Under the pieces are notes generated by a model. The model was not told the origin of the DNA, did no database searches, and saw only the letters and a program-made list of their open reading frames with translations. Shown one piece after another: positions 787-34,015 of a stretch of 34,957 nt of DNA. The position numbers and the translations under genes are program-made. The stretch comes from Actinocatenispora comari. GTDB taxonomy: Bacteria > Actinomycetota > Actinomycetes > Mycobacteriales > Micromonosporaceae. Each line of letters begins with the position of its first letter. Position 1 is the stretch's first letter. The stretch is from the NCBI RefSeq assembly GCF_017312725.1, contig NZ_BOPO01000009.1, positions 18,814 through 53,770 of the forward strand. The letters are read 5' to 3'.

Positions 787-1127
787 TGGCCCTCCCGATC
801 GTCCTCAGAGACTGTTGCGGAATCCCATGATCGGCCGCGCCCCGACCGGCTCGATCGAAGGCCCCCACAGTCTCTCCGGCGGCCGCCGCGCAGGTCCGTG
901 GCGCGCGACGTCGGCCCCGTGCTCGTCGAGCCTACCGGTGCGGCGGCCCGGCCCCGGACCGACACGGCCGGCCCGCCGACCGCCCGGAGCGGGGAGCGTA
1001 CGGACCGGACGAACGGCGGCAACGTGACACGAGACGATGGTCATCGATACGTTGTTCGCATTCGATGCGCACCGGCGGGTCCTGTCGTGCGGGCCTCGGC
1101 GTGGCGACTGGAGTCTCGGAGGACGCG
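787..1127. promoter_or_regulatory. Divergent intergenic region, candidate operator 1042-1067
   Basis: This 341-base gap separates the methyltransferase (minus) from the GH89 gene (plus), so both promoters should lie here. I see no credible gene in it; the short ORFs are Arg/Pro-rich shadows. The only clear structure is an inverted repeat, catcga (1042-1047) and tcgatg (1062-1067), separated by 14 bases and lying about 60 bases before the GH89 start. Its position suits a repressor or activator of the glycosidase gene, but the factor is unknown. Confidence 0.35.
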
Positions 1128-3386
1128 ATGGTGCGACGCAGGAGCGTGCTCGCCGCGGCGGCCGGCGCCGGCGTGGCCGCCGGGCTGGCCGCGACCCCGG
1201 CGGCGGCGGACGCGGCACCGTCGTTCGCGGCGGCCGACGCCGCGCTGCGCCGGCTGCTCGGCGACCGGTACGCCGACCAGATCGACCTGCGCCGGCTCGC
1301 CGGTGGTACCGACCCGCACCGGCTCGCCGGTGGTACCGACCAGCACCGGCTCGCCGGTGGTGTCGACCGGTACCGGGTGGACGGCGTCGACGGGCGCCTG
1401 GTGGTCGCGGCGACCAGCGGGGCGACCGCGCTCGCCGGGGTGCAGCGCTACCTGGGCACGCTGGCCGCGGGGGTCTGGTGGACCGCCGACAACCTGGCGC
1501 TGCCGCGCCGGCTGCCGGCTCCGGTGGGTGCGATCGAGGCGACCGCGGCGGTGCCGCACCGGTTCGCCGGCAACGACACGTACGAGGGCTACACCGATCC
1601 GGACGCCGGGTTCCCGGCCTGGCGGCGCGACCTGGACGTGCTCGCCGCGCACGGCTTCAACGAGGTACTGGTCGGGCTCGGCACCGACGCGGTCTACCTG
1701 GAGACGCTGCAGGCGTTCGGCTACTCCGCGGCCGAGCTGCTGGACTGGATCCCCGGCCCGGCGCACCAGCCGTGGTGGCTGCTGCAGAACATGTCCGGCT
1801 TCGGCGGACCGATGTCGGAGGGGCTGGTGCGGCGGCGCGCGGCGCTCGCCGGCCAGGTGCTCGACCACGTCCGGTCGCTCGGCATGACCCCGGTGCTGCC
1901 CGGCTACTTCGGCACGGTGCCGCCGGACTTCGCCGCCCGCAACCCGGCCGCCCGGGTGGTACCGCAGGGACGGTGGTGCGGCTTCGACCGGCCCGGCTGG
2001 CTGGACCCGCGCGGCGAGGTCTTCGCCGACGTCGCGGCGGTGTTCTACGCCAACCAGGCCCGCCGGTTCGGCGCCTCCTCGATGTACAAGATGGATCTGC
2101 TGCACGAGGGCGGCAGCGCCGGCGACGTACCGGTCGGGGCCGCGTCGGCGGCGGTGGAGCGGGCACTGCGGCGGGCGCACCCGGGCGCGACCTGGGTCAT
2201 CCTGGGCTGGCAGCGCAATCCGCTGCCGGCCACCCTCGCGGCGGTCGACCGGTCCAGGATGCTGATCGTGGACGGGCTCGCGGAGCGGTCCGCCGCCGTC
2301 GACCGGGAGACCGACTGGTCGAACACGCCGTACGCGTTCGGCACCATCTACAACTACGGCGGCAAGTCGACGCTGGGCGGCGCCGCGGCGACCTGGGTCG
2401 ACAAGTACCACCGCTGGCAGGCCAAGCCGAACGGCGCGCTGGCCGGCATCGCGCTGATGCCGGAGGCCAACCGCACCTCGGACGCGAACCTCGACCTGTT
2501 CGGCGCGCTCGGCTGGCACACCGGCCGGATCGAGCTGCCGGCGTACTACGCCGACTACGCGCGGCGCCGCTACGGTGCCGCCGACACCCACGCCGCGGCG
2601 GCCTGGGCCGCGCTGCGCGACACCGCGTACGCGATCGGCGGCGACAGCGCCGAACCGCAGGACGGCCTGTTCGGCGCGCAGCCGAGCCTGACCGCCACCT
2701 CCGGCGCGGCCTGGTCGCCGAGCACCGTCCAGTACGACCCGGCCGCGTTCGACGCGGCCCTGCCGGCGCTGCTGCGGGTCGCGCCGCGGCTGCGCACCGG
2801 GGCGGCGTACCGGGCGGACCTGGTCGACGTGGCCCGGCAGACCATCGACAACCACGGGCGGGCGCTGCTCCCGCAGCTGCACCAGGCGTACACCGACGCC
2901 GACCTGGTGGTGTTCGACCAGCTCGCCGCGGCCTGGCTGGCGCTGCTGGACCTGCTCGGCGACCTGGTGTCGACCCGGCCGGAGCTGCTGCTCGGGCCGC
3001 GGCTGGCGAGCGCCCGGGCCGCCGGCGGCGACCAGGCCGAGGCGGACCGGCTGGAGTTCGACCAGCGCAGCCTGCTCACCGTGTGGGGTGACCGGACCGC
3101 GTCGGTGGACGGCGGACTGCGCGACTACGCCAACCGGGAGTGGGACGGGCTGGTGCGCGACGTGTACCGGCCGCGTTGGGCGCGCTACCTGGCCGCGGTA
3201 CGCACCGCGATCGTCACCGACACCCCGATCGCGGAGCACGACTGGTTCGCCGACGCCGATCGCTGGGCCCGCCGGCACGACCGGTACCGGCAGCGCCCGG
3301 TCGGCGACGAGTACCGGCTGGCGTTGCGCACCCACCAGGCCCTCACCGGGCCCCGGCAGATCCACGTCCAGCTGCGCGCCGGCTGA
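1128..3386 (+). CDS. Exported alpha-N-acetylglucosaminidase, GH89 family (NAGLU-like)
   Basis: Predicted product of 752 aa, close to human NAGLU (743 aa). GH89 enzymes remove terminal alpha-linked N-acetylglucosamine from glycans. The chosen ATG has GGAGGA four bases upstream and places MVRRRSVLAAAAG at the N-terminus, a twin-arginine-like export signal followed by an Ala-rich stretch, so the enzyme is probably secreted. An in-frame ATG at 1065 would add 21 residues in front of this signal and is less likely. By family knowledge the two catalytic glutamates should correspond to E327 (in LLHEGGS) and E446 (in LMPEANR); both are present. The YNYGGKSTLGG segment matches the NFGG-type motif of the family. 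Residues about 56-82 are three copies of a nine-residue repeat, RLAGGTDPH and variants. The gene stands alone. Substrate could be mucin-type or heparan-type glycan, or a bacterial polymer; the sequence does not say which. Confidence 0.9.
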   Translation: MVRRRSVLAAAAGAGVAAGLAATPAAADAAPSFAAADAALRRLLGDRYADQIDLRRLAGGTDPHRLAGGTDQHRLAGGVDRYRVDGVDGRLVVAATSGATALAGVQRYLGTLAAGVWWTADNLALPRRLPAPVGAIEATAAVPHRFAGNDTYEGYTDPDAGFPAWRRDLDVLAAHGFNEVLVGLGTDAVYLETLQAFGYSAAELLDWIPGPAHQPWWLLQNMSGFGGPMSEGLVRRRAALAGQVLDHVRSLGMTPVLPGYFGTVPPDFAARNPAARVVPQGRWCGFDRPGWLDPRGEVFADVAAVFYANQARRFGASSMYKMDLLHEGGSAGDVPVGAASAAVERALRRAHPGATWVILGWQRNPLPATLAAVDRSRMLIVDGLAERSAAVDRETDWSNTPYAFGTIYNYGGKSTLGGAAATWVDKYHRWQAKPNGALAGIALMPEANRTSDANLDLFGALGWHTGRIELPAYYADYARRRYGAADTHAAAAWAALRDTAYAIGGDSAEPQDGLFGAQPSLTATSGAAWSPSTVQYDPAAFDAALPALLRVAPRLRTGAAYRADLVDVARQTIDNHGRALLPQLHQAYTDADLVVFDQLAAAWLALLDLLGDLVSTRPELLLGPRLASARAAGGDQAEADRLEFDQRSLLTVWGDRTASVDGGLRDYANREWDGLVRDVYRPRWARYLAAVRTAIVTDTPIAEHDWFADADRWARRHDRYRQRPVGDEYRLALRTHQALTGPRQIHVQLRAG
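1293..1373. repeat. Three tandem 27-bp units inside the GH89 gene
   Basis: Units 1293-1319, 1320-1346 and 1347-1373 each start cggctcgccggtggt and encode RLAGGTDPH, RLAGGTDQH and RLAGGVDRY. The array lies in the N-terminal region just after the signal peptide and keeps the frame. Confidence 0.92.
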
Positions 3387-3528: not shown

Positions 3529-4599
3529 TCAGGCGGCGGCGGTGGCCGGGGTGGGCAGCAGGGCACGGACGCCGCGTGCGGCGACCCGGCCGGCCCGGTT
3601 CGCGCCGATGGTCGACGCGGACGGCCCGTACCCGACCAGGAACAGCCGCGGCTCGGCCGCCGCCCGGGTGTCCTCGACGCGGATGCCGCCGCCCGGCTCG
3701 CGCAACCGCAGCGGGGCGAGATGGCTCAGCACCGGACGGAAACCGGTGCACCACAGGATCACGTCGGCGGCGAGTTCTCGGTGTCCCTCCACCGGCTCGT
3801 CCCAGGCGATGCCGGTCGGGGTGATCCGGTCGAACATCGGCAGCCGGTGCAGCGCGCCGCGTCGCATCGCGGCCCGGACCTGCTCGTCGGGTACCAGCCC
3901 GGTCACCGAGACGACGCTGCCCGGCGGCAGCCCCGCCCGTACCCGGCGGTCCACCTCGGCGACCGCGGCCCGGCCCAGCTCGTCGCCGAACGGCCCGTCG
4001 CGAAACACCGGCGGGCGGCGGGTCACCCAGGTGGTACTGGTCACCGCGGAGATCTCGGCGAGCAGCTGGGTCGCCGACGCGCCACCGCCGACCACCACCA
4101 CGTGCCGGCCGGCGAACTCGTCGGCGCTGCGGTAGTCGGCGGTGTGCAGCTGCCGGCCGGTGAAGCTCGCCCGGCCCGGATAGGCCGGCCAGTACGGCCG
4201 CTCCCAGGTACCGGTGGCGTTGACCACCGCGCGCGCCGCCCAGCCGCCGGCGGACGTGTCGACCAGCAGCCGCTCGTCGCCGCGGCGCACCGACCGTACG
4301 TCGACCGGCCGGCGCACGGGCAGCTCGAAGCGCCGCTCGTACGCGCCGAAGTAGTCGGCCACCACCCGCGAGGCCGGCACGTCCGGGTCCGCGGCCGGCA
4401 GCGGCATCCCGGGCAGGTCGTGGATGCGGTGGGTGCGGCCGAGCACCAGCGAGTCCCACCGGGACCGCCAGGCGCCGCCCGGCCCGCCGGCGTGGTCGAG
4501 CAGCACGAACCCCACCCCGTCCCGGCGCAGGTGGTAGGCGGTCGACAGGCCGGCCTGACCGGCGCCGATCACCACCGCGTCGATCTCTCGGTAGCTCAC
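3529..4599 (-). CDS. Flavin-containing monooxygenase-like NAD(P)/FAD oxidoreductase
   Basis: Predicted product of 356 aa related to the CzcO/YhiN-type flavoprotein monooxygenases. The FAD-binding motif VIGAGQAG is at residues 11-18. A second dinucleotide fold VVVVGGGASA is at about 167-176, as expected for NADPH. The ATG-type hinge VVNATGTWERP is at about 125-135. The C-terminal GYGPSASTIGANRAGR fits the FAD-contacting end of the family. I chose the GTG at 4599 because the first beta strand starts six residues later; no strong ribosome site is visible there. The gene is transcribed away from the cysteine-less P450 across a 384-base gap, so the two may share control and a pathway. Its substrate, probably a soft nucleophile or a ketone, cannot be told from sequence. 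Confidence 0.85.
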   Translation of the reverse strand: MSYREIDAVVIGAGQAGLSTAYHLRRDGVGFVLLDHAGGPGGAWRSRWDSLVLGRTHRIHDLPGMPLPAADPDVPASRVVADYFGAYERRFELPVRRPVDVRSVRRGDERLLVDTSAGGWAARAVVNATGTWERPYWPAYPGRASFTGRQLHTADYRSADEFAGRHVVVVGGGASATQLLAEISAVTSTTWVTRRPPVFRDGPFGDELGRAAVAEVDRRVRAGLPPGSVVSVTGLVPDEQVRAAMRRGALHRLPMFDRITPTGIAWDEPVEGHRELAADVILWCTGFRPVLSHLAPLRLREPGGGIRVEDTRAAAEPRLFLVGYGPSASTIGANRAGRVAARGVRALLPTPATAAA

Positions 4600-4983
4600 A
4601 CCGGCGGCAACGCGCCGCGGGCCGGCACCCTTCCGTACCGCCGGGTCTGGTCGGCCACAGCCACGCGGCGGGAGCGGCCGGCCAGCCGCCCCACCGAGAC
4701 CCCGGCCGCCGTGGCTCCCGGGCGAGACGGTCGGCACGGCCGGCCGCCGAGATCGGCCGGCCGATGGTGCCAGCCCGCGCGACCGCGGGCAACCGGGTAT
4801 CGCGTTGCGAGCGACACAGTGCGTGACGGATTGACTGTGGCCAGAGATCTCGGTACGAAGAGGACGCGCGTGATGAGGATCATGGGTGGTTGCGGACCGG
4901 ACGGCGCGGGTCCGCGGGACGCCCGGTCGCGCGCAGGGCGGTGCGTGGCGGTCGACCGGCACGCCAAGGGCGAGGGGGTGGCC
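4600..4983. promoter_or_regulatory. Divergent control region between FMO-like gene and P450 homologue
   Basis: No credible gene is seen in these 384 bases. It holds a 14-bp perfect palindrome, atcggccggccgat (4752-4765). It also holds a 7-bp-stem hairpin with loop cgac (4773-4790) and the promoter described separately at 4831-4859. The frame of the P450 homologue stays open through it back to an ATG at 4873, so part of it could encode an N-terminal extension. Confidence 0.4.
4831..4859 (+). promoter_or_regulatory. Predicted sigma-70-type promoter for the P450 homologue
   Basis: The -35 box TTGACT (4831-4836) and the -10 box TACGAA (4854-4859) are separated by exactly 17 bases, one of the best matches to the vegetative consensus in the window. 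Transcription would start near 4866 and give a leader of about 118 bases to the GTG at 4984, or an almost leaderless message for the ATG at 4873. Confidence 0.55.
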
Positions 4984-6288
4984 GTGGCGACGACACGAGC
5001 CCTGCCGGGGCCGAGGGGCAGCGCACTGGCCGGCAACGAACGCGCCTACCAGCACGACCGGATCGGCTTCCTGCAACGTTGCCAGCAGCAGTACGGCGAC
5101 GTGTTCCGGCTCGACGCCGGCACCGTGGTGGTGTGCGACCCGGACCGGGCCCGGCGGATCCTGGCCGACTCCCAGCAGCGGTTCCGGGCCGAGGGGATGC
5201 TGCTGTCCGGCGCCCGACCCGGCGGGCGGGCGCCGCTCGCCGACTGGCCGGCGGCCCGCGATGCCGCGGCCCGGGAGCTGACCACCCCGATGCTCGCCGC
5301 GCACGCCGGCCGGCTGGTCGAGACGTTCCCGCACGCGCTGGCCACGCTCGCCGAGCGCACCCTGCCCGGGGTGTCCGCGCTGCAGCGGCTGTCCGCGATC
5401 GCGGTCGCCGACTTCTGCCTGGGTCGGCCCGGCTGGCCGGACGCCGAGCTGTCCGGCGCGATCGCCGAGTCGGCGCTGGCGCTGGTCGCGGTGCTCGACT
5501 CGGGCCTGCAGCTGCCACGCTGGATACCGGACCCGCGGCGGCGCCGGCTGCGCGCGGCCGACCGGGCGCTGTCCGCGGCGCTGACCCGCGCGGTGACCGA
5601 ACGGCTCGACCAGCCGCCGCCGGAGTCGCCCGGTGACCTGCTCGACCAGGTACGCGCCGAAGACGCCGGCCGCACCGCCACCAGCCGGGCGCTGCTGACC
5701 ACGCTGGCCGGCATGCACGCGGTACCGGGTACCGCGCTGTGCTGGCTGGTCGCCACGCTCGCCGAGCATCCGGAGACCTGCCGGCGGATCCGGTGCGAGG
5801 CAGCCGACGGGCTGGCCGAGGTGGCCGAGACCGCCCAGCCGGACCGCCTGGCCTACACCGCGGCGACGGTGCGGGAGGTGCTGCGGCTCTACCCGCCGAC
5901 CTGGTTGGTGTCGCGGCAGGTGGCCGAGCCGGTGGAGGTGGCCGGCTGGCGGCTGGAGCCGGGCGAGCAGGTGCTGATCAGCCCGTACCTGATGCACCGC
6001 GACCCGCGCCGCTGGGACGAACCCGACCGGTTCTGCCCGGAGCGGTTCCTCGCGCTCGGCGCGCACGGCCACGCGTACCTGCCGTTCGGCGCCGGGCCGG
6101 GCAGCCGGCTGAGCGCCCGGCTGGGCATGCTGCAGCTGACCCTGCTCACCGCGCTGATCGCCCGCGACTACACCCCCGCGGTACGGCCGCTGCCGGTGGC
6201 GCCGCGGTTCGCCACCCTGCTGATCCCCACCGAGCTGCGGTTCCGCCTGCTCCCACCGGAACCCGAAGAGTCCACAGTGGACAACTAG
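4984..6288 (+). CDS. Cytochrome P450 homologue lacking the haem-ligand cysteine
   Basis: Predicted product of 434 aa with a full-length P450 fold. The K-helix ExxR is intact (E298-R301 in REVLRLYPP), as is PERF (352-355). The haem loop, which should read FxxGxRxCxG, reads FGAGPGSRLSARLG from F368: the conserved Arg is Gly373, the axial Cys is Arg375 and the following Gly is Ser377. The I-helix also deviates: AGMHAVPGTA (242-251) replaces the usual AGxET/DT oxygen-activation motif. There is no frameshift or stop, and the surrounding sequence is well conserved. By knowledge of the superfamily it should not bind haem-thiolate normally. Cysteine-less P450-like proteins such as EryCII and DnrQ act as helpers of glycosyltransferases, but no such partner is adjacent here. 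Start: GTG 4984 with AGGGGG five bases upstream; the in-frame ATG 4873 is the alternative. The stop overlaps the convergent HxlR gene by four bases. Confidence 0.85.
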   Translation: MATTRALPGPRGSALAGNERAYQHDRIGFLQRCQQQYGDVFRLDAGTVVVCDPDRARRILADSQQRFRAEGMLLSGARPGGRAPLADWPAARDAAARELTTPMLAAHAGRLVETFPHALATLAERTLPGVSALQRLSAIAVADFCLGRPGWPDAELSGAIAESALALVAVLDSGLQLPRWIPDPRRRRLRAADRALSAALTRAVTERLDQPPPESPGDLLDQVRAEDAGRTATSRALLTTLAGMHAVPGTALCWLVATLAEHPETCRRIRCEAADGLAEVAETAQPDRLAYTAATVREVLRLYPPTWLVSRQVAEPVEVAGWRLEPGEQVLISPYLMHRDPRRWDEPDRFCPERFLALGAHGHAYLPFGAGPGSRLSARLGMLQLTLLTALIARDYTPAVRPLPVAPRFATLLIPTELRFRLLPPEPEESTVDN

Positions 6289-6638
6289 GTTCGGGACGTC
6301 GCGGCCAGCTCCTCCTGGTGCTCGGCCGCCCACCCGGCGAGCTGCGCCAGCGGGCCGTCGGCGAACGACGTTCCCAGCGCGGTGAGCTCGTAGCGGGCCG
6401 CGTCCCGGCGCGAGCCGTTCGGCATCCGCGCCACCAGGCCGCGCGCGGTCAGGCGGCGCAGGGATTCGGTCAGCGCCTTGTCGCTGACCCCGGCGATGCG
6501 CTCCAGCAGCACGCTGCGCCGGGTCGGTCCCCGCCGCAGCGCGGACAGGACCACCGGGTCCCACGTGTGGTCGATGAGCTCGACCGCGGCTCGTACCTGG
6601 CAGTCCGAGACGAAGGTCTCGCAGCCGTCCTGGTTCAC
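6285..6638 (-). CDS. HxlR-family winged-helix transcriptional regulator
   Basis: Predicted product of 117 aa, the normal size for HxlR/MarR-like regulators that bind DNA as dimers. The core LIDHTWDPVVLSALRRGPTRRSVLLERIAGVSDKALTESLRRLTARGLV is the typical family helix-turn-helix plus wing, given here by its landmarks (HTWDPVVL, SDKALTESLRRL, RGLVAR). Two cysteines precede it (C6 and C13); in some HxlR proteins an N-terminal cysteine senses electrophiles or disulfide stress, so redox sensing is possible but unproven. It is divergent from the NADP-binding reductase at 6729 and faces a perfect palindrome that is likely its own operator. The GTG start at 6638 lies six bases after a TAGGCT -10 box, so the message may be leaderless. 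Confidence 0.88.
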   Translation of the reverse strand: MNQDGCETFVSDCQVRAAVELIDHTWDPVVLSALRRGPTRRSVLLERIAGVSDKALTESLRRLTARGLVARMPNGSRRDAARYELTALGTSFADGPLAQLAGWAAEHQEELAATSRT

Positions 6639-6644
6639 CGTTCC

Positions 6645-6650
6645 AGCCTA
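6645..6650 (-). promoter_or_regulatory. -10 box of the HxlR gene, leaderless geometry
   Basis: On the minus strand TAGGCT is followed by six bases (ggaacg) and then the GTG start of the HxlR gene. The -35 region falls inside the palindrome at 6654-6683. Confidence 0.4.
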
Positions 6651-6653
6651 CGA

Positions 6654-6683
6654 CCGCGTTCCTACCGATCGGTAGGAACGCGG
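6654..6683. promoter_or_regulatory. Perfect 30-bp palindrome, probable HxlR operator
   Basis: The half-site ccgcgttcctaccga (6654-6668) is followed directly by its exact reverse complement (6669-6683). It lies in the 90-base gap between the HxlR regulator and the divergent reductase gene. It covers the -35 region of TAGGCT (minus, 6645-6650) and of TAGCGT (plus, 6688-6693). Binding of a dimer here would control both genes. Other palindromes of this length and perfection were not seen in the window. Confidence 0.75.
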
Positions 6684-6728
6684 CTCCTAGCGTTTCCGTC
6701 GACACCGCACGAGACGAAGGAGACCGAC

Positions 6729-7391
6729 GTGCAGATCGGAATGTTGGGGACCGGGAACCTGGCTGTCGCACTGGGCCGGGCGTGGTCGACCGCCGGGCAC
6801 CCGATCGTGGTCACCGGCCGGGACCCGGGCCGGGCCGCGGCCGCCGCGAAACAGATCGGGACGACCGCGACCTCGGCCCTCCCGGGACGGTTCGCCGCAC
6901 GGATCGATGTCGCCGTCGTGGCGATCGCCTGGGACGGGCTGGAGCAGGCGCTGCGGCTCGTCGGCGGTCCCGAGGGAACGCTGGCGGGCAAGACGGTCGT
7001 CGACTGCACCAATCCGGTGGACTACGCGACCGGCCGCCTGCTTCCGGAGACCGGTTCGGCCGCCGAACTCGTCGCCCGGGTCGCGGCCGGCGCCCACGTG
7101 GTGAAGGCGTTGCACCTGTTCGCCGGGGCGTCGTGGCCGTTCACCGGCGAGGCCGACGCGTCCCCGATCGTCGCGATCTGCGGTGACGGCGCCGACCCGC
7201 TCGACCGGGTCACCTCGCTGGTCGCGGACCTGGGCGCGCGGTCCGCGGTGCTCGGCGGGCTCGCCGCCGCCAGGCAGGTCGAGGAAGCCGCCGGCTTCGT
7301 GACGCGGCTCGTCGCCGCCGGCCCCAACCCGCGCTGGGCGGTTCCGGACGTGGACCCGACCCTGCTCCGCGCGGCGGCCGCCGACCGGTGA
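6729..7391 (+). CDS. NADP-binding reductase of the F420-dependent/NADPH-dehydrogenase (FNO-like) fold
   Basis: Predicted product of 220 aa. The N-terminus MQIGMLGTGNLAVALGRAW is the GxGxxA dinucleotide motif of the NADP oxidoreductase coenzyme F420-dependent family, and VVTGRDPGRA follows at the NADP 2'-phosphate position. VVAIAWDGLEQAL and KTVVDCTNPVDY are also typical of this family. Members either reduce F420 with NADPH or are uncharacterised oxidoreductases; the sequence alone does not separate these. GTG 6729 has AAGGAG six bases upstream, a strong site. It is divergent from the HxlR regulator and shares the 30-bp palindrome, which suggests it is the regulated target and may serve in redox or electrophile stress. 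Confidence 0.85.
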   Translation: MQIGMLGTGNLAVALGRAWSTAGHPIVVTGRDPGRAAAAAKQIGTTATSALPGRFAARIDVAVVAIAWDGLEQALRLVGGPEGTLAGKTVVDCTNPVDYATGRLLPETGSAAELVARVAAGAHVVKALHLFAGASWPFTGEADASPIVAICGDGADPLDRVTSLVADLGARSAVLGGLAAARQVEEAAGFVTRLVAAGPNPRWAVPDVDPTLLRAAAADR

Positions 7392-7542: not shown

Positions 7543-10500
7543 TCAGCGGAAGTCGCGGGAGGCGGTGCGGACCGACAGCGACAGCGGCGCGATCCGCTCG
7601 GCGACCAGGTTCGTCACCCCGTCGGCACGCTCCAGCCGGCCCCGGACCAGCATCGCCGGCGCCGTGCGCGCGGTTCGCCGGTGCGCCCGCCACACCCCGG
7701 GCGAGCAGATCACGTTGAGCATGCCGGTCTCGTCCTCCAGGTTGACGAACGTGACGCCGCCGGCGGTCGACGGCCGCTGCCGGTGCGTGACCACCCCGCC
7801 GACGGTGACCCGGTCGCCGTCGGCGACGCCGGCAAGCTCACCGATGCGGCGCGCGCCGGCGGCGTCCAGCCGGTCCCGGGCGAACTCGGCCGGATGGCTG
7901 TCGGTGGACAGTCCGATCGCCCACACGTCGGCCGCGATCCGCTCCACCGCGTCCATTCCGGGCAGCGTCGGCGCGGCGGCCCCGCTGCCGGTACCGGGCA
8001 GGGTGTCGGGCCGTTCGGTGGCGGCGGCGCCGGCCGCCCACAGCGCCTGCCGCCGGGTCAGCCCGATCCCGCCGAACGCGCCGGCGGTGGCCAGCGCCTC
8101 CAGCGCCGCCGTGCCCAGCCCGGTACGCCGGGCCAGGTCGATCAGGTCCCGGTACGGGCCGCGCTCCTGCCGCTCGGCCACGATCTTCTCGGCCAGCTCG
8201 GTGCCGACGCCGCGCACCGCCGACAGGCCCAGCCGTACCGCCGGGCCGGCCACGCCCCACTGCCGTTTCGGCGCCTTCTTCGGTGCCGGCGCTGCGCACT
8301 GCCGGCCGGCGGCCGGATCGGCGCACTGCCGGCCGGCGGCCGGGTCCGCACGCTGCCGGCCGGTAGCCGGGTCGGTGCGCTGCCGGCCGGCGGCCGGGTC
8401 GGTGCGCTGCCGGCCCTCCAGCGTCGCGCCGGCGCCGGAGGAGTTGATGTCCGGCCGCAGGATCGCCACGCCGTGCCGGCGCGCGTCGGCGACCAGCGTC
8501 TGCGGCGAGTAGAACCCCATCGGTTGGGCGTTGAGCAGCGCGGCGCAGAACGCGGCCGGGTAGTACCGCTTGAGGTAGGCGCTGGCGTACACCAGGAACG
8601 CGAAGCTGATCGCGTGGCTCTCGGGAAAGCCGAAGTTGGCGAACGCGGACAGCTTGGTGAAGATCTCGTCGGCCAGCTCGCCGGTGATGCCGTTGCCGGC
8701 CATCCCCTCGTACAGCCGGCGGCGCAGTTGCTCCATCCGCTCGGTGGAGCGCTTCGAGCCCATCGCCCGGCGCAGCCGGTCGGCCTCGGCCGGGCCGAAG
8801 TCGGCCACGTCCATCGCCAGTTGCATCAGCTGCTCCTGGAACAGCGGTACGCCCAGGGTCTTGCCCAGGGCCCGCTCCATCAACGGATGCGGGATCGTCT
8901 TCGGCTGCCGGCCGTTCTTGCGGTCCAGGTAGGGGTGCACCGAGCCGCCCTGGATCGGGCCGGGGCGGATCAGCGCCACCTCCACCACCAGGTCGTAGAA
9001 GCACTTCGGCTTGAGCCGGGGCAGCGTGGCCATCTGCGCCCGCGACTCGACCTGGAACACCCCGACCGAGTCGGCCTCGCACAGCATCTGGTAGACGCCC
9101 TCGTCCTCGATCGGCAGCTCGTGCAACGTGTACCGCTCGCCGTGGTGCTGGCCGACCAGCCGCAACGCCTCGCCCAGCGCGGTGAGCATGCCGAGCCCCA
9201 GCAGGTCGAACTTGACCAGTTCGATCGCCGCGCAGCCCTCCTTGTCCCACTGCAGCACGGTGCGGCCGGGCATCCGGGCGTGCTCGACCGGGCACACCTC
9301 GCTGACCGGCCGGTCGCAGATCACCATCCCGCCGGAGTGGATGCCCAGGTGCCGGGGGAAGCCGAGCATCCGGTCGGCCAGCTCGATCACCTGACCCGGA
9401 ATCCCCTCACCGTCCACAGTGGACGCATGCCCGTCCAGGCTCCTGCTCCAGGCGTCCCGCTGGCCGGGCGAGTAGCCGAGCGCGGCGGCCGCGTCCCGCA
9501 CCGCCATCCGTGGCCGGTAGCTGATCACGTTCGCCACCTGGGCGGCGTGCCGGCGGCCGTGCTTGGTGTAGACGTACTGGATGACCTCCTCGCGGCGGTC
9601 CGACGCGATGTCGATGTCGATGTCCGGCGGCCCGTCCCGTTCCGGCGCGAGGAACCGTTCGAACAGCAGGTCGTAGGCGATCGGGTCGGCGGCGGTGATG
9701 CCCAGCGCGTAGCAGACCGCGGAGTTGGCCGCCGATCCCCGGCCCTGGCACAGGATGCCCTTCTCCCGGCAGAACCGCACGATGTCCCACACCACCAGGA
9801 AGTACCCGGGGAAGCCGAGCTCGTCGATGATCGCCAGCTCGTGCTCGATCTGCTCGTACGCACCCGGATGCTGCGCGGCCGAGCCGTAGTGCTCGGCCGC
9901 GCCGTCGTAGGTGAGCCGGCGCAGGTAGGCCATCTCCGAGTCGACGTCGGCCGGCAGGTCGAAGTCGGGCAACCGGGGCGCCACCAACCGCAGGTCGAAC
10001 GCGCAGTCCGCGGCGATGTCCACAGTGGACTCCACCGCGCCGGGCCAGCCGCGGAACCGGGCCGCCATCTCCGCGCCGCTGCGCAGGAACGCCGCGCCGG
10101 CCGGGGGCAGCCAGCCGGCCAGCTCGTCCAGCGAGCAGCGCGCCCGTACCGCCGCGAGCGCCGCCGCCAGCCGCCCGTCCGCCGGCCGGGCGTAGTGCAC
10201 GTTGCCGGTCGCCACCACCGGCAACCGTTGCCGCTGCGCCAGTTCCGCGAGGATCTCGTTGCGGTCGTCGTCGTCCGGCCGGTCGTGGTCGGTCAGCTCC
10301 ACCGCCACCCGGTCGGCGCCGAACATGGCGACCAGCTCCCGCAGCCGCGCCTCCGCCGCATCCCGCCCGTCCGCCATCGCCGCACCCGGGCCCGCCGCGG
10401 CGAGCGCCGCCGGTACCGCACCCTTGCGGCAACCGGTCAGCACCCACCAGTGGCCCCGGCCGAGCTCCGCCAGCTGTGCCGGGTCGTACACCGGGCGGCC

Positions 10501-11319
10501 CTTCCGGCCACCACGCAGGTGCGCCTCGCTGATCGCGGTGGCCAGCCGCCGGTAGCCCTCCGCGCCCCGGGCCAGCACCAGCAGGTGCTCGCCGGCCGGA
10601 TCCTGGTTCGGGCCGGACGCCACCGGCGCCGCGGCCAGGGTCAGCTCGGCACCGAACACCGTGGCCAGCCCGTGGTCGCGGGCCGCCTCGGCGAAATCGA
10701 CCACGCCGTAGAACCCGTCGTGGTCGGTGACCGCGAGGCCGGCGAGCCCCAGCCTGGCCGCCTGCTCGGCCAACTGCCCGGGCGGGCTCGCCCCGTCCAG
10801 GAAGCTGTAGTTGGTGTGGCAGTGCAGCTCCGCGTACGGTACCGGCCGGACCCGGCCGGCCCGTCGAAACGCCCCCGGCGGCACCGCCGCCCGCCCACCG
10901 TTCGTACCGTTCCGGTCGCCACCGGCCCGAACGGCACCGGGCCGGTCCACGTCGTACCGGTCGGTGCCGGCGCCGGGCAGCGCCCGGAGCCGGCGGTCAC
11001 GCCGCCGGGTGCGGCCACCGCCCACCGGTTCCGTGCCGTACCGCTCTCCCCCGGCCTCTCCCCCGGCACCCGGCGACCCGAGGCCACCCGATGGCCGGGT
11101 CCCCTCGGGCGACTCGAGATCAGCCGACGGCTGGGGACCCCCCACCGGCTTGCGGCCGTGCGCGGGGTGGCGATCGCCCGACGGTTCGACATCGCCCGAC
11201 GGTTCGGGGTCGTCCGCCGGCTTGCGGTCACCCGACGGCTCGGGGTCGTCCGGGGACCGGCCGCCGACCAGGCGGCGGCGGTACTCCGCCCACGAGATCG
11301 GCGGATTGTGCCACCCCAT
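7543..11319 (-). CDS. dnaE2: Error-prone DNA polymerase III alpha subunit DnaE2
   Basis: Predicted product of 1258 aa, about 150 aa longer than the usual DnaE2. With ImuA' and ImuB it forms the mutasome that copies past damaged DNA. The start MGWHNPPISWAEY is the conserved DnaE2 N-terminus, so I prefer ATG 11319 to the in-frame GTG 11352. The PHP domain begins PYAELHCHTNYSFLDG (H166, H168). The polymerase catalytic aspartates are in PPDIDIDIASD near residue 565, and the C-terminal OB fold reads VTVGGVVTHRQRPSTAGG. The extra length lies in two places. A Pro/Gly/Asp-rich segment at residues about 20-160 contains DDPEPSGD repeats. A linker at about 968-1009 is built from 27-bp tandem repeats (GRQRTDPAA units). 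Both are outside the catalytic core. It is last in the imuA'-imuB-dnaE2 series, 51 bases after imuB. Confidence 0.95.
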   Translation of the reverse strand: MGWHNPPISWAEYRRRLVGGRSPDDPEPSGDRKPADDPEPSGDVEPSGDRHPAHGRKPVGGPQPSADLESPEGTRPSGGLGSPGAGGEAGGERYGTEPVGGGRTRRRDRRLRALPGAGTDRYDVDRPGAVRAGGDRNGTNGGRAAVPPGAFRRAGRVRPVPYAELHCHTNYSFLDGASPPGQLAEQAARLGLAGLAVTDHDGFYGVVDFAEAARDHGLATVFGAELTLAAAPVASGPNQDPAGEHLLVLARGAEGYRRLATAISEAHLRGGRKGRPVYDPAQLAELGRGHWWVLTGCRKGAVPAALAAAGPGAAMADGRDAAEARLRELVAMFGADRVAVELTDHDRPDDDDRNEILAELAQRQRLPVVATGNVHYARPADGRLAAALAAVRARCSLDELAGWLPPAGAAFLRSGAEMAARFRGWPGAVESTVDIAADCAFDLRLVAPRLPDFDLPADVDSEMAYLRRLTYDGAAEHYGSAAQHPGAYEQIEHELAIIDELGFPGYFLVVWDIVRFCREKGILCQGRGSAANSAVCYALGITAADPIAYDLLFERFLAPERDGPPDIDIDIASDRREEVIQYVYTKHGRRHAAQVANVISYRPRMAVRDAAAALGYSPGQRDAWSRSLDGHASTVDGEGIPGQVIELADRMLGFPRHLGIHSGGMVICDRPVSEVCPVEHARMPGRTVLQWDKEGCAAIELVKFDLLGLGMLTALGEALRLVGQHHGERYTLHELPIEDEGVYQMLCEADSVGVFQVESRAQMATLPRLKPKCFYDLVVEVALIRPGPIQGGSVHPYLDRKNGRQPKTIPHPLMERALGKTLGVPLFQEQLMQLAMDVADFGPAEADRLRRAMGSKRSTERMEQLRRRLYEGMAGNGITGELADEIFTKLSAFANFGFPESHAISFAFLVYASAYLKRYYPAAFCAALLNAQPMGFYSPQTLVADARRHGVAILRPDINSSGAGATLEGRQRTDPAAGRQRTDPATGRQRADPAAGRQCADPAAGRQCAAPAPKKAPKRQWGVAGPAVRLGLSAVRGVGTELAEKIVAERQERGPYRDLIDLARRTGLGTAALEALATAGAFGGIGLTRRQALWAAGAAATERPDTLPGTGSGAAAPTLPGMDAVERIAADVWAIGLSTDSHPAEFARDRLDAAGARRIGELAGVADGDRVTVGGVVTHRQRPSTAGGVTFVNLEDETGMLNVICSPGVWRAHRRTARTAPAMLVRGRLERADGVTNLVAERIAPLSLSVRTASRDFR
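8294..8416. repeat. Four and a half tandem 27-bp units inside dnaE2
   Basis: Full units are 8294-8320, 8321-8347, 8348-8374 and 8375-8401, followed by a partial unit. Each contains ctgccggccgg and on the coding strand gives GRQRTDPAA or GRQCADPAA. The array forms a charged linker between the polymerase body and the C-terminal helix-hairpin-helix/OB part. Confidence 0.92.
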
Positions 11320-11352
11320 CAGCGCACCCCGTCCCCGTCGTGACCTACACAC

Positions 11353-11363
11353 TCCACTGTGGA
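11353..11363. repeat. Recurrent near-palindrome TCCACAGTGGA between imuB and dnaE2
   Basis: This 11-mer occurs here (on the minus strand), in dnaE2 at 9413-9423 and 10019-10029, and at the end of the P450 homologue at 6271-6281. I saw no copy elsewhere in the window. In the three coding copies it spells Ser-Thr-Val-Asp and uses the rare Thr codons ACA or ACT. The function is unknown. Confidence 0.5.
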
Positions 11364-11370
11364 CAGATAA

Positions 11371-12909
11371 TCAGTCATAGCTCGCCTCCACCCGCCATCG
11401 GCCGTCCGAGCACGCCAGCAGCAGGGCCCGGCCGTCCGCCAGCGACACCTGGATGCGGGCCAGCCGCCGCGCCTCGCCGGGCTGCCACCAGCGCTCCTCC
11501 GCCGGCCACGGCCCGGCCCAGGACAGCACCGCCGCCGGCGCACCGGTACCGACCGCCACCGTCGCCGGCGACGCGGTGATCTGGTGCCGGCCGGTCACCC
11601 CGATCGGCACCCCGTCGGCGGCCAGCACGGCGGCACCGGCCGCCGCGACGTCCGCCGGCGCCGGCATCGGCAGCCGCCCGGGCCACGGCGCCGGCGGCAA
11701 CGCCGGTACCCGTTCGTCGCCGAACGGCACCTGCCGCGTCAGCTCGGTCGGCGACCGGCCGCCGCCGAGCACCGGGGCCAGCACCCCGGCCGGCCCCAAC
11801 AGCCCCTGGACGTGCGTGATCGACCGGCGCGCGTCGGCCCCCTCGTCGCCCGGCTCGCCCCACAACCGGCGCTGGAAGCCGGCGTGCTCGACCAGCCCGT
11901 CCGGGACCAGGCACAGCGTCGTGACCCCGGCGGTCGGCCGGCCCGCGCGGGTCAGCCACCCCTCCAGCTGCCAGCGGACCCGGTCGGCGATCTCCGCCGG
12001 CCCGAGCAGCCCGTCGTAGCGCCAGGTGCGCTCCAGCTGCTCCCCGTTGCCGGTACCGGCGACGATGGTCAGTCGGGTGGCGCCCAGGCCGTGCGCGGTC
12101 AGCCGCTCGTGCAGCCGCTCGGCCAGCGACCGGGCCAGGAACGCGGCGGTGTCCACCCGCGCCACCGGATCGTCGAACTCCTCGCGTACCGACAGCTCTG
12201 GCGGCACCGACCGGGGCGCGAGCAGCCGCTGCTCCCGGCCGGCGGCCAGCCGGTGCGCCACCGCCGCGTCGAACCCGAACCGGGCCAGCACGTCACCGGC
12301 CGGCAGCGCGGCGAACGCACCGAGGGTACGGATGCCGAGCCGGCGCAGCAGCCCCACCAGCTCCGGCCGGGCCAGCACCCGCACGTCCAGCTCGGCCAGG
12401 AACGCCGGCGTGTCACCCGGCTCGACCAGCACGCCGGCCCGGGCTGCCAGCGTCGCCGCGAACACCCCGTCCGCGATGCCGACCTGCGCCTCCACCTCGC
12501 AGCTGGTGGCGACGTGATCGACCAGTCGCTCGGCCGCGGTCGCCTCGCCACCCAGGTACCCGGCCGGGCCCCGGGCCGCGAGCGCCGCCACCCCCGGCCG
12601 TACCACCTCGACGCCGGCGGCGAGTTCGGCGACCGCGTCGGCCACCGGTTCGAACACCCGCACGTCACGCACCGGGTCGTGCGGTACCACGATCAGCTCC
12701 GGGCAGCAGGCCTGGGCGTCGCGCCGCCGCTGCCCGCGCCGGACGCCCTCGGCGCGGGCCAACTGCGAGCAGGCGATCACGCTACCGGCGTCGATGACCG
12801 CCACCGGCCGGTGCTCGGCCAGCTCGATCCCGGCGTCGCGGTGGTCGGTGAAGGCCGCGGCAACCGGCCAGTCCGGGCACCAGAGCACCAGCGTGCGGAT
12901 CGGATCCAC
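11371..12909 (-). CDS. imuB: Mutasome hub protein ImuB, inactive Y-family polymerase
   Basis: Predicted product of 512 aa. ImuB has a Y-family polymerase fold but bridges ImuA', DnaE2 and the beta clamp rather than synthesising DNA. The N-terminus reads RTLVLWCPDWPVAAAF where an active polymerase would have an acidic YVDxDxFFA-type motif. The second acidic motif is also absent (VVRPGVAALAA), which agrees with a catalytically dead protein. RQVPFGDE at Q393 lies where mycobacterial ImuB has its beta-clamp motif QLPLWG and is a good candidate for it. The GTG start at 12909 sits one base after the imuA' stop, so translation is probably coupled. No repeat expansion is visible in this gene, unlike its two partners. 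Confidence 0.92.
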   Translation of the reverse strand: MDPIRTLVLWCPDWPVAAAFTDHRDAGIELAEHRPVAVIDAGSVIACSQLARAEGVRRGQRRRDAQACCPELIVVPHDPVRDVRVFEPVADAVAELAAGVEVVRPGVAALAARGPAGYLGGEATAAERLVDHVATSCEVEAQVGIADGVFAATLAARAGVLVEPGDTPAFLAELDVRVLARPELVGLLRRLGIRTLGAFAALPAGDVLARFGFDAAVAHRLAAGREQRLLAPRSVPPELSVREEFDDPVARVDTAAFLARSLAERLHERLTAHGLGATRLTIVAGTGNGEQLERTWRYDGLLGPAEIADRVRWQLEGWLTRAGRPTAGVTTLCLVPDGLVEHAGFQRRLWGEPGDEGADARRSITHVQGLLGPAGVLAPVLGGGRSPTELTRQVPFGDERVPALPPAPWPGRLPMPAPADVAAAGAAVLAADGVPIGVTGRHQITASPATVAVGTGAPAAVLSWAGPWPAEERWWQPGEARRLARIQVSLADGRALLLACSDGRWRVEASYD

Positions 12910-12910
12910 C

Positions 12911-13924
12911 TCAGCCCACCGCCTCGGCCCCGGCCGGACCTGCGGACTGCGTACCGGCGTCGGTGGGCTGCCCCATCCCGGCACCGCCCGCCACCCGGCC
13001 ACCCGACCCGGCACCGCCGGTCGCTTCGATGCCGGTCACCGCACCGGATTCGGCGCCAGCGACGCCCGCGGCCCCGGCACTGCCCGCCCCGGCCAACGCG
13101 TAGTCCGTGGCGGCAGCCCCGGCACCGATCGACGCCCCCGTCCCAGCAGGCGAACCGTAGTCCCTGGCGGCAGCCCCGGCACCGATCGCCGCCCCCGTCC
13201 CAGCAGGCGAACCGTAGTCTGTGGTGGCGGCGAAGGCCGCCACCACAGACGCTTCGCCGAGCCGGCCCGCCGGCAGCAGCAGCCGGGCCGAGCGAGGCCG
13301 GGCCGCGGCGCCCCGGCCGGTGGCCCGCACCGTCAGGGTGCGTCGCCGGAGCCGGCCGCGCCCGTCGGACAGCCCCTCCCAGACCGGATCCGTGCAGCGC
13401 AGCGACACGTCGGCGCCCGGCCAGTCGCCGTGCACCACCAGGACGGCGCCACGCTGCCGGGCCCGGGCCGCGAGCCGGCGCGCCTGCCCCACCGGCACCG
13501 TCCCGGCCGGCCGCGCCACCACCAGCCCGAACCCGTCCAGCAGCGCACCGACCACCGGCCACCAGTGGTGTCCGGGGTCCGGTACCAGGGCGAGGCGTTC
13601 GGGGGCCACCCCGAACTCGGCGGCGCTGACCACGCCGACGTTCGGCAACCCCACCATGGCGCACCATTCGCCCTGCTGGGACGCCGCACCCAGCAGCGCG
13701 AACATCAGCGAGGTGCCGCCGATCGCGGCGGCCACCGACAGCACGCTGCCCCGCCGCAGCCCGCCGTCGGGCAGCAGTTGCCGCAGCGGCGGGTACACCG
13801 GAAGGACCCGGCCGATGCGATGGTGGATCGTGGCGGCCGAACGAACGGCGCCGGAGCGCAGCAGCTGCGCCGGCGCGGGTCCACGTACCGCACCGCCGGC
13901 GGGCCGGACGGCCTCGCCTCTCAT
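12911..13924 (-). CDS. imuA': ImuA' (RecA-like SOS mutagenesis accessory protein)
   Basis: Predicted product of 337 aa. ImuA' proteins are RecA/SulA-related partners of ImuB and are needed for DnaE2-dependent mutagenesis. The RecA-like core starts LPDGGLRRGSVLSVAAAIGGTSL; where a Walker A would place Gly-Lys-Thr/Ser it has Gly-Gly-Thr-Ser, so the invariant lysine is missing. The core continues through VPDPGHHWWPVVGALLDGFGLVV and ends near SARLLLPAGRLGEAS. The last ~105 residues are Ala/Gly/Thr-rich and begin with two copies of a 19-residue repeat (DYGSPAGTGA...), probably a disordered tail. ATG 13924 has GGGGGA a few bases upstream. It is the first gene of the imuA'-imuB-dnaE2 run. A 464-base gap separates it from the HEPN gene upstream, and no LexA box lies directly in front of it. 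Confidence 0.88.
   Translation of the reverse strand: MRGEAVRPAGGAVRGPAPAQLLRSGAVRSAATIHHRIGRVLPVYPPLRQLLPDGGLRRGSVLSVAAAIGGTSLMFALLGAASQQGEWCAMVGLPNVGVVSAAEFGVAPERLALVPDPGHHWWPVVGALLDGFGLVVARPAGTVPVGQARRLAARARQRGAVLVVHGDWPGADVSLRCTDPVWEGLSDGRGRLRRRTLTVRATGRGAAARPRSARLLLPAGRLGEASVVAAFAATTDYGSPAGTGAAIGAGAAARDYGSPAGTGASIGAGAAATDYALAGAGSAGAAGVAGAESGAVTGIEATGGAGSGGRVAGGAGMGQPTDAGTQSAGPAGAEAVG
13100..13225. repeat. Two tandem 57-bp units plus a partial third in imuA'
   Basis: Units 13100-13156 and 13157-13213 differ at very few positions, and a third starts at 13214 (gtagtctgtgg). They encode 19-residue repeats in the ImuA' tail. The high identity suggests a recent duplication. The period is again a multiple of three. 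Confidence 0.92.
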
Positions 13925-31750: not shown

Positions 31751-34015
31751 TCAGGCCGCCAGCGCCGGCTCGGGCATCCGCTCGCCGAGGACCTGGGCGT
31801 AGATCTCCTCGTACCGCCGCAGGGTCGCGGGCACCGCGTGCTGCTCGACCCGGCGCCGGCCCGCCGCACCCATCCGGACCCGCAGCTGCGGGTCGGCGGC
31901 GAGCATGCCCAGCCGGGAGGCGAGCCCGGCCACGTCGCCCGGCTGGTACAGCCAGCCGTTGTCGCCGTTGTGCACCAGGTGCGGCAACGCCATCGCGTCC
32001 GCAGCGACCACCGGTCGGCCGGCGGCCATCGCCTCCATCGTCACCAGGCTCTGCAGCTCGGCGATGCCGGGGATGCAGAAGATGTCGGCCCGCTCGTACG
32101 CGGCCGGCAGCTCCTCGTCCGGCACGAACCCGCTGAACCGGACCCGGTCGCCGACACGCAGGTCGGCGGCGAGCCGCTGCCACTCGTCCCGGCGCGACCC
32201 GGTGCCCACCAGCTCGACGTTCAGCGGCAGCGCCGCCGGCAGCAGCGCGAGCGCCCGGATCAGCTCGTCGACCCGCTTCTCGGCGTCCAGCCGGCCGACG
32301 AACAGCACCGTCGGCACCTCCGCGTCCGGCGCCCGGCGGGCCGCGAACCGGTCCAGGTCGATCCCGCAGGAGACCGCCTCGGCGTGCTCGATCCCGTTCT
32401 CCTGCAACAGCTCCACCGCCCGCTGGGTCGGTGCGGTGACCGCCACCGCGCGGTGGAACACCTTCGCCGCGTCCCGCCAGGCCGCCGACCGGGCCGCGTC
32501 GTGCAGCGCGCGCGGCAGCCGCAGGTAGCCGAACAGGTTCTCCGGCATGAAGTGGTTGGTCGCCACCAGCGGCACCCGGTGCCGGTTCGCCGCCACCGAC
32601 AGCGCCCGGCCGATCAGCATGTGCGACTGGATGTGCACCACGTCCGGCGCCAGCTCCGCGATCAGGTCGTCGGCCGCCGCGTTCGCCTGCCACGGCGGGC
32701 AGAATCGGAACGTCGGGTGGAACGGCGTGCGCCGCGCCCGCACCCGGTGCACGAACACACCGTCCATCATGGACACTCCAGCGGCCCCGTCCGGAGACGG
32801 CGCCAGCACGTGCACCTCGTGCCCGCGCGCCGCCAGCCCCGTCGCCAGCCGGTACGAGAACCGCGCCGCACCGTTGACGTCCGGTACGAACGTGTCCGCA
32901 CCGACCACGATGCGCCGAGCCGCACTGTCGACACCATTCACCGTCTGCTCCCTCGTCCGCGACGGCGCCGTCGCCGTCGTCCCCGATCCGTTCGATCCGC
33001 CCGCTCCCGGCGCCCGCGCCGGTATCCGCTGCGTTGCCTCGTTCTCGGCGTCCGGTGCGCCTCCACGGCGCGCCATGACCCCCCGTCGTCCGGTCAGCTC
33101 CCGCCCCCCGGCCGGCGCCGGTGCTGCCGGCTCGCCGACCAGCACGCCCGGTTCCCCGCCGTCGCGCACCGTTCGCGGCGCGGCATCCGGGTGGAACCTG
33201 GCCAGCAGCACCACGCCACCGGCCGCCACCAGCGCCAACGCCACCTGACCGGCCACCGTCGCCGGCGACATCGCGGCGCCCTCGCCCAGCAGCACCGCAC
33301 CGACCAGTACCGCGAAGAACGGGTCGGCCATGGTCAGGCACGCCACCACCACGGTCGGCGGCCCCGACGCGTAGGCGAGCTGGATCAGCGCGCCGCCGAC
33401 CAGCAGCGCCACCACCAACCCGATCAGGACCAGCACCGGCGTCGCGCCGACGCCGCCGACCAGCAGCCGCTGCACGACCACCCGCGTCGACACCGACACG
33501 AACCCGTACGCGAGGCCGCCGGCAGTGGCGAGCGCCAGGCACCGCGCCCGGCCCCGTACCAGCGGCGCCAACGCACCCAGTACCGCCACGCCCGCCGCGG
33601 CGAGCAGCGCGGTGCGGCCGATGGCCACGTCCGAGATCACGGTGTCCCGGGCCTGCCCCGAGGTGAGCAGGACGAACCCGCCCACCGCCGCGGTCGTCGC
33701 ACCGATCGCGGTCAGCGTCACCCCGCCCGGCCAGCGCCGGGCCGAGACCGCCGAGAGCGCCGCGACCAGTACCACCGCGAGCACGCCCAGCGGCTGCACC
33801 ACGCTGAGCGGTGCCAGCCCCAACGCCGCCGAGTGCAGCCCGGCACCGACCCCGATGAGCAGCAGGCCGCCGAACCAGCGGCGCTGCCGTACCAGCCGGC
33901 CGAGCCGGCCGCGGCCCGGTGCGCACGCCGTGCGCACCGCGGCATGCTGCACGTGCGCGGCCAGCGCGTACGCCACCGCTCCCGCCAGCGCCAACACGAT
34001 CGCCAGCACGGTCAT
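31751..34015 (-). CDS. DMT-family transporter fused to a GT4 glycosyltransferase
   Basis: One open frame of 754 aa. Residues 1 to about 285 are a polytopic membrane domain of the drug/metabolite transporter superfamily, with nine or ten hydrophobic segments from MTVLAIVLALAGAVAYALAA to VALALVAAGGVVLLARF. A ~75-residue Pro/Ala/Gly/Arg-rich linker follows. From about residue 359 a complete GT-B glycosyltransferase of family 4 begins: VVGADTFVPDVNGAARF, then HIQSHMLIGRAL, VLFVGRLDAEKRVDELI and the donor-site segment GIAELQSLVTMEAMAAGRPVV. ATG 34015 has GGAGG six bases upstream and overlaps the DUF998 gene as ATGA. Inside the frame GTG 32941 has GAGGGAG six bases upstream, so a 396-aa stand-alone GT may also be made. 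The domain pairing suggests export or flipping of a lipid or sugar coupled to glycosylation, which is inference. Confidence 0.85.
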   Translation of the reverse strand: MTVLAIVLALAGAVAYALAAHVQHAAVRTACAPGRGRLGRLVRQRRWFGGLLLIGVGAGLHSAALGLAPLSVVQPLGVLAVVLVAALSAVSARRWPGGVTLTAIGATTAAVGGFVLLTSGQARDTVISDVAIGRTALLAAAGVAVLGALAPLVRGRARCLALATAGGLAYGFVSVSTRVVVQRLLVGGVGATPVLVLIGLVVALLVGGALIQLAYASGPPTVVVACLTMADPFFAVLVGAVLLGEGAAMSPATVAGQVALALVAAGGVVLLARFHPDAAPRTVRDGGEPGVLVGEPAAPAPAGGRELTGRRGVMARRGGAPDAENEATQRIPARAPGAGGSNGSGTTATAPSRTREQTVNGVDSAARRIVVGADTFVPDVNGAARFSYRLATGLAARGHEVHVLAPSPDGAAGVSMMDGVFVHRVRARRTPFHPTFRFCPPWQANAAADDLIAELAPDVVHIQSHMLIGRALSVAANRHRVPLVATNHFMPENLFGYLRLPRALHDAARSAAWRDAAKVFHRAVAVTAPTQRAVELLQENGIEHAEAVSCGIDLDRFAARRAPDAEVPTVLFVGRLDAEKRVDELIRALALLPAALPLNVELVGTGSRRDEWQRLAADLRVGDRVRFSGFVPDEELPAAYERADIFCIPGIAELQSLVTMEAMAAGRPVVAADAMALPHLVHNGDNGWLYQPGDVAGLASRLGMLAADPQLRVRMGAAGRRRVEQHAVPATLRRYEEIYAQVLGERMPEPALAA

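Follow-up and report, generated by a model that had tools for sequence, protein, structure and literature searches.

The cysteine of the P450 haem loop is the ligand that holds the haem iron. Haem-free P450 homologues have been described as glycosyltransferase activators in antibiotic clusters, and the available part of that account (PMC3391682) presents EryCII, DesVIII and DnrQ as proteins of the P450 fold that have lost the haem Cys and are not active P450s; EryCII, in which haem is lost and both the C and C' helices are absent, is proposed there to be an allosteric activator of its glycosyltransferase.

The window analysed here, a stretch of 34,957 nucleotides of Actinocatenispora comari DNA, contains a gene for another P450-fold protein without this Cys, on which our literature searches found no publication. 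The features of the locus are as follows.

3529–4599, minus strand: FMO-like flavoprotein, divergently transcribed; the nearest named model is ArsO, with a score below its cut-off
4831–4860, plus strand: promoter/operator-like element TTGACTGTGnnnnGAGATCTCGGTACGAAG with the 8-bp palindrome GAGATCTC, from the intergenic alignment of four genomes
4984–6288, plus strand: Cys-less P450-fold protein, 434 aa, predicted GTG start; Pfam p450, start conserved in all four genomes of the genus
5245–5259, plus strand: C-helix WPAAR (W88...R92), with the Arg kept in the window and replaced by Gly in A. rupis
5371–5424, plus strand: presumed helix E (residues 130–147, approximate limits), where conservation against A. 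rupis most exceeds that of the control pairs
5707–5736, plus strand: I-helix stretch AGMHAVPGTA without the acid-alcohol pair, which Cys-bearing relatives lack as well
5875–5886, plus strand: ExxR (E298–R301), intact in the alignment
6037–6048, plus strand: PERF (352–355), intact in the alignment
6085–6126, plus strand: haem-loop region FGAGPGSRLSARLG, with the Arg375 codon at 6106–6108 where Cys is expected

The protein has the P450 fold, scoring 126.6 bits against Pfam PF00067 (cut-off 22.8) over residues 12–400. Translation and alignment bear out the sequence-only reading of a 434-residue P450 homologue with ExxR and PERF intact, and the frame at 4984–6288 has neither a stop nor a frameshift. 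The length of 434 aa holds if translation starts at the predicted GTG at 4984, earlier in-frame starts being present. The residues from this GTG, beginning VATTRALPGPRG, are conserved in all four Actinocatenispora genomes, while the intergenic alignment of these genomes contains single-base indels upstream of it; taken together, and with the start being a predicted one, these observations argue against an N-terminal extension. The Rfam scan of 4500–6700 gave no match above the gathering scores, and the best of the matches listed from plasmid records is 31.6% identical to the window protein. The AlphaFold2 model, computed for the window protein together with the A. rupis protein, has a pLDDT of 36.5 and a pTM of 0.34; no claim about a pocket rests on it, and the helix limits taken from it, which loosely match the general P450 topology, served only for labelling segments.

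The codons from 6085 (residue 368, F) are TTC GGC GCC GGG CCG GGC AGC CGG CTG AGC GCC CGG CTG GGC, and the haem loop reads FGAGPGSRLS, whereas the loop of all 30 Cys-bearing relatives that were read is FGxGxRxCxG. Alignment with these relatives confirmed what had been noticed from the letters, that three consensus positions are changed and that Cys has become Arg: R373 is replaced by G, C375 by R and G377 by S, all three in columns invariant across the 30 relatives, and the register is identical in the phmmer and MAFFT alignments (G373 for Arg, R375 for Cys, S377 for Gly). The Cys of FxxGxRxCxG is thus missing from the window protein, where Arg375 stands instead. In two further Actinocatenispora genomes, G002 and G003, the loop has the same amino acids, with four synonymous and no non-synonymous differences over the 14 codons. 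The loop of A. rupis, PFGGVPHRRATGGRTSGGLLGARLAM, also lacks Cys, has Leu at that column and contains a 10-residue insertion that carries Args and a His; the placement of the gaps varies with the alignment, and the loop-Arg column is Arg in neither of the two alignments made. The identity of the loop in two further genomes and the absence of Cys in A. rupis show that the change is more than chance or a sequencing error.

There are 13 matches to PF00067 in the A. comari genome, including two that represent a second piece or a copy, and the other ten distinct P450 genes keep the loop Cys. The loop YGTGPGACVG found on contig C53 of the same genome (locus L008) has Gly for the loop Arg and still has the Cys, so that the Arg-to-Gly change by itself is not diagnostic. 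The window itself holds a second, ordinary P450 (15419–16624, plus strand) with intact AGHETT and FGIGPHFCLG motifs.

Orthologues were found in all four Actinocatenispora genomes, with 98% (G002) and 95% (G003) identity to the window protein over 434 aa and 69–71% identity in A. rupis; none has the Cys, three having Arg and A. rupis Leu at its place. The searches covered 354 genomes of the family (E≤1e-30), 397 of the order (E≤1e-65) and 394 of the class (E≤1e-70), sets that overlap, and scored about four candidates per genome, so that a distant Cys-less relative could escape them. Loops were read at 26 family loci outside the genus, the family search having listed many further matches, and at four loci from the order and class searches. 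The resulting Cys-bearing relatives (26 from the family, three from the order, one from the class) are 34–42% identical to the window protein. Two of the 26 family relatives, L022 and L037, have a TGA within the match; for L074–L077 the frame was chosen by a Cys-containing pattern, and the loops of L074–L076 were also shown without that Cys condition.

A tree was built from 30 rows, 26 for the family relatives and four for the Cys-less proteins, and the latter group together in a single clade (support 100/100). The branch leading to it has 1.24 changes per column; the end branches of L038 (1.13) and L022 (1.0) are almost as long, hence the rate of the Cys-less clade is not exceptional. Twelve loci of Cys-bearing relatives had no telling neighbour in common: ABC ATPases, a large regulator, a cysteine desulfurase-like gene and a response regulator (names by reading) occurred in at least two of them, where the simple gene caller missed the P450 in two loci and two loci end at contig ends.

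The Cys-bearing relatives (L020–L045 and L074–L077) are orphan actinomycete P450s. Apart from the degree of identity, they resemble the window protein in the ExxR motif (30/30) and in an I-helix of the GVP[GA] type (29/30), and differ from it in the FGxGxRxCxG loop. The acid-alcohol pair is missing from the window I-helix, AGMHAVPG, just as the sequence-only reading had it, but this is weak as an argument for a changed function and is not diagnostic, given that G[VIA]P[GA] is found in 29 of the 30 Cys-bearing relatives and the canonical [AG]Gx[DE]T[ST] in none. Since the odd I-helix is common to the Cys-bearing relatives, it predates the loss of Cys; the ancestral P450 may not have used ordinary oxygen activation, and loss of haem may thereby have been easier. 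The orphan group with this I-helix and without the acid-alcohol motif possibly represents unusual P450 chemistry in its own right.

We calculated dN/dS by the NG86 method and obtained, for the P450-like gene, 0.08 between the window and G002 (0.011/0.139), 0.16 between the window and G003 (0.025/0.16) and 0.44 between the window and A. rupis (0.204/0.465); the components by YN00, for the two close pairs only, are 0.009/0.412 and 0.021/0.424, respectively. In the same order of genomes (G002, G003, A. rupis), the ratios are 0.14, 0.16 and 0.30 for the FMO-like gene, 0.14, 0.15 and 0.41 for ImuB, and 0.28, 0.29 and 0.38 for the part of DnaE2 compared. The P450-like gene is thus about as constrained as its neighbours in the close genomes and slightly less so against A. 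rupis, where no other of the four genes has so high a ratio and the constraint is moderate. Orthologues with a normal Cys and a dN/dS near one, which had been named as evidence of a decaying P450, were not found within the genus, as Cys is absent from all four copies.

The changes are unevenly placed. There are 39 columns invariant in the 30 Cys-bearing relatives, 34 of which are kept by the window protein and 32 by that of A. rupis; columns lost in one or both proteins make up five of the seven in the haem loop, against three of the 32 elsewhere (Fisher p=0.0017; p=0.032 for the window and p=0.012 for A. rupis tested singly). As controls we used 127 Cys-bearing pairs of 62–80% overall identity, formed from 19 sequences, so that the pairs share members and are not independent. 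The window and A. rupis proteins have an identity of 0.40 in the haem loop and of 0.47 in the C helix, lower than in every control (minima 0.90 and 0.53, respectively), and of 0.39 in the D-E region, where one of the 127 controls is that low. Their identity in the presumed helices E-F-G is 0.80, higher than in every control (maximum 0.79), the strongest part being helix E with 0.94 (control maximum 0.83). Between these two genes dN/dS is 0.35 in E-F-G versus 0.40 elsewhere, and 0.69 in C-D plus the haem loop. On the haem side the usual constraint has clearly been lifted; for E-F-G, a tightened new surface is only suggested, because the excess comes in part from a lower dS and is small against dS, and it does not prove that there is a new surface for interaction.

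The conserved element at 4831–4860 is 30 bp long and lies about 150 nt before the predicted start, in an intergenic region the rest of which is mostly unalignable with A. rupis. All 26 specified bases of its pattern match without a mismatch in the four genomes, the pattern being derived from the alignment of the same four intergenic regions, and it occurs once per genome in all four even with up to three mismatches allowed. No promoter was found in a scan with the sigma-70 consensus, and we use the term promoter-like only because the element is conserved and has a TTGACT/17/TACGAA layout.

Beyond the FMO-like gene, as seen from the P450-like gene, the window encodes a homologue of alpha-N-acetylglucosaminidase (NAGLU) with three Pfam domains (1065–3386, plus strand). 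On the other side of the P450-like gene there is a mutagenesis cassette DnaE2 - ImuB - ImuA-like (7543–13924, minus strand); the names DnaE2 and ImuA-like are presumed from reading, and the matches of the ImuB gene to models of Y-family polymerases do not reach the cut-offs. In the window (6285–7391) and in G002, the P450-like gene is separated from DnaE2 by an HxlR-type regulator (minus strand) and an F420-dependent NADP oxidoreductase-like gene (plus strand). In G003 and A. rupis, as judged from the gene positions, the P450-like gene and DnaE2 abut with no space for these two genes. In G003 (locus L047, 5290–8996 and 11776–14030) the DnaE2 and NAGLU homologues are each in two pieces in different frames, which suggests frameshifts or assembly errors.

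The surroundings bear on two readings in which the protein would serve a particular enzyme. It is improbable that the protein is dedicated to the divergently encoded FMO-like flavoprotein (351.6 bits against the ArsO model, cut-off 425), as its partner or its regulator. The two genes are divergent neighbours in 4/4 Actinocatenispora genomes, even where protein identity falls to about 70%, which speaks for such a role, but homologues of DnaE2 and ImuB also stay near the P450-like gene in all four, so that the adjacency may be plain synteny. FMO homologues occur in 187 of the 354 family genomes (E≤1e-60); none of the eight FMO loci inspected has such a P450, and none of the 12 loci of P450 relatives has such an FMO. 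The earlier suggestion that the two genes work together is weakened by this distribution. That the protein is a glycosyltransferase activator of the EryCII/DesVIII/DnrQ type is highly improbable, even though it shares with them, as far as the available part of PMC3391682 describes them, the P450 fold and the lost haem Cys, and EryCIII-like_N matches above the cut-off are found in three of the four genus genomes (33.5–40.6 bits against 27). A. rupis has no such match. TIGR04515, the model of these activators, gives the window protein 57.7 bits where the cut-off is 343, a score that ordinary P450s in the genus genomes surpass, and none of the four genus genomes exceeds the cut-off, for which reasons membership in this family was rejected. 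The protein scores closer to other P450 groups, its best named NCBIfam matches being ApyO (94 bits), albaflavenone monooxygenase (80.9) and pentalenene oxygenase (68.2), all of them far below the respective cut-offs of 525, 700 and 800. Its C helix is still alignable, whereas EryCII, in the same part of PMC3391682, has neither C nor C' helix, and its conserved predicted start lies just ahead of a PGPRG motif, which would leave no space for the N-terminal A'' helix that serves EryCII as its partner interface. None of the flanking genes (NAGLU, FMO-like, HxlR, F420 reductase-like) encodes a glycosyltransferase; in the set of window proteins that were scanned, a single glycosyltransferase was recognised, of the GT4 type and about 25 kb away (31751–32776). 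The best reading is that the protein arose separately from the EryCII-type activators.

Two further readings concern the haem itself and the fate of the gene. In principle, haem could be bound through another ligand, and the protein could still contain haem, its proximal site being vacant or occupied by something other than a thiolate, with propionate contacts holding the haem for peroxidase-like or non-redox chemistry. The intact ExxR and meander and the I-helix, already non-standard in the relatives, agree with this, as do R311, kept in all four genomes, and the C-helix R92, invariant in the 30 relatives and kept in three of the four; we take both Args to be haem-propionate contacts. We nevertheless consider such a haem protein unlikely: R92 is Gly in A. 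rupis, three genomes have Gly for the loop Arg and A. rupis has a non-Arg residue (depending on the alignment, as the insertion has Args and a His), and Arg in three proteins versus Leu in one at the Cys column leaves no common replacement ligand there. A P450 that is decaying on its way to loss would explain the fast change of the haem loop and the C/D region and the high whole-gene ratio against A. rupis. It is very unlikely in view of the frame being open in all four genomes, the ratios in the close genomes being near or under those of the neighbours, the loop having no non-synonymous change among three genomes, and the upstream element being retained.

From the comparison of these sequences we rather expect a conserved pseudoenzyme of the P450 fold, which would have lost the thiolate ligand near the base of the genus and been kept for binding or docking, and which has probably found a new use without haem, as a helper or a binding protein. 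Its ancestor would be an orphan P450 already possessing the non-standard I-helix; the haem-thiolate ligand would have been lost at or near the base of Actinocatenispora, and purifying selection, which the dN/dS values show, would then have kept the Cys-less protein. Such a protein would hold no thiolate-ligated haem and perform no P450 monooxygenation. With less certainty, it may use the retained P450 scaffold for binding, whether to another enzyme, as its docking or allosteric partner, or to a ligand; in Oxy P450s the start of the F helix is a protein docking site, according to the available part of PMC5238595. The idea of the NRPS X-domain as a Cys-less P450 fold has no support in that part of the paper and was dropped. 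Of the sequence-only proposal of a non-oxygenase role, the retention stands, supported by the absence of Cys in all four genomes, the dN/dS well below one and the conserved upstream element, while the argument from the I-helix has lost weight.

Tentatively, and with slightly less than even confidence, the locus may represent a second, separate origin, in which an orphan P450 became a haem-free docking or allosteric helper or a binder of small molecules, without a glycosyltransferase partner and with its own conserved promoter, in one genus. A Cys-less P450 that belongs to another P450 group, is selected genus-wide and has no adjoining glycosyltransferase would show a wider reuse of the fold. 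The four Cys-less orthologues with their two loop solutions, together with Cys-bearing relatives at about 40% identity, make a clean test set for the transition from a haem enzyme to a non-catalytic protein.
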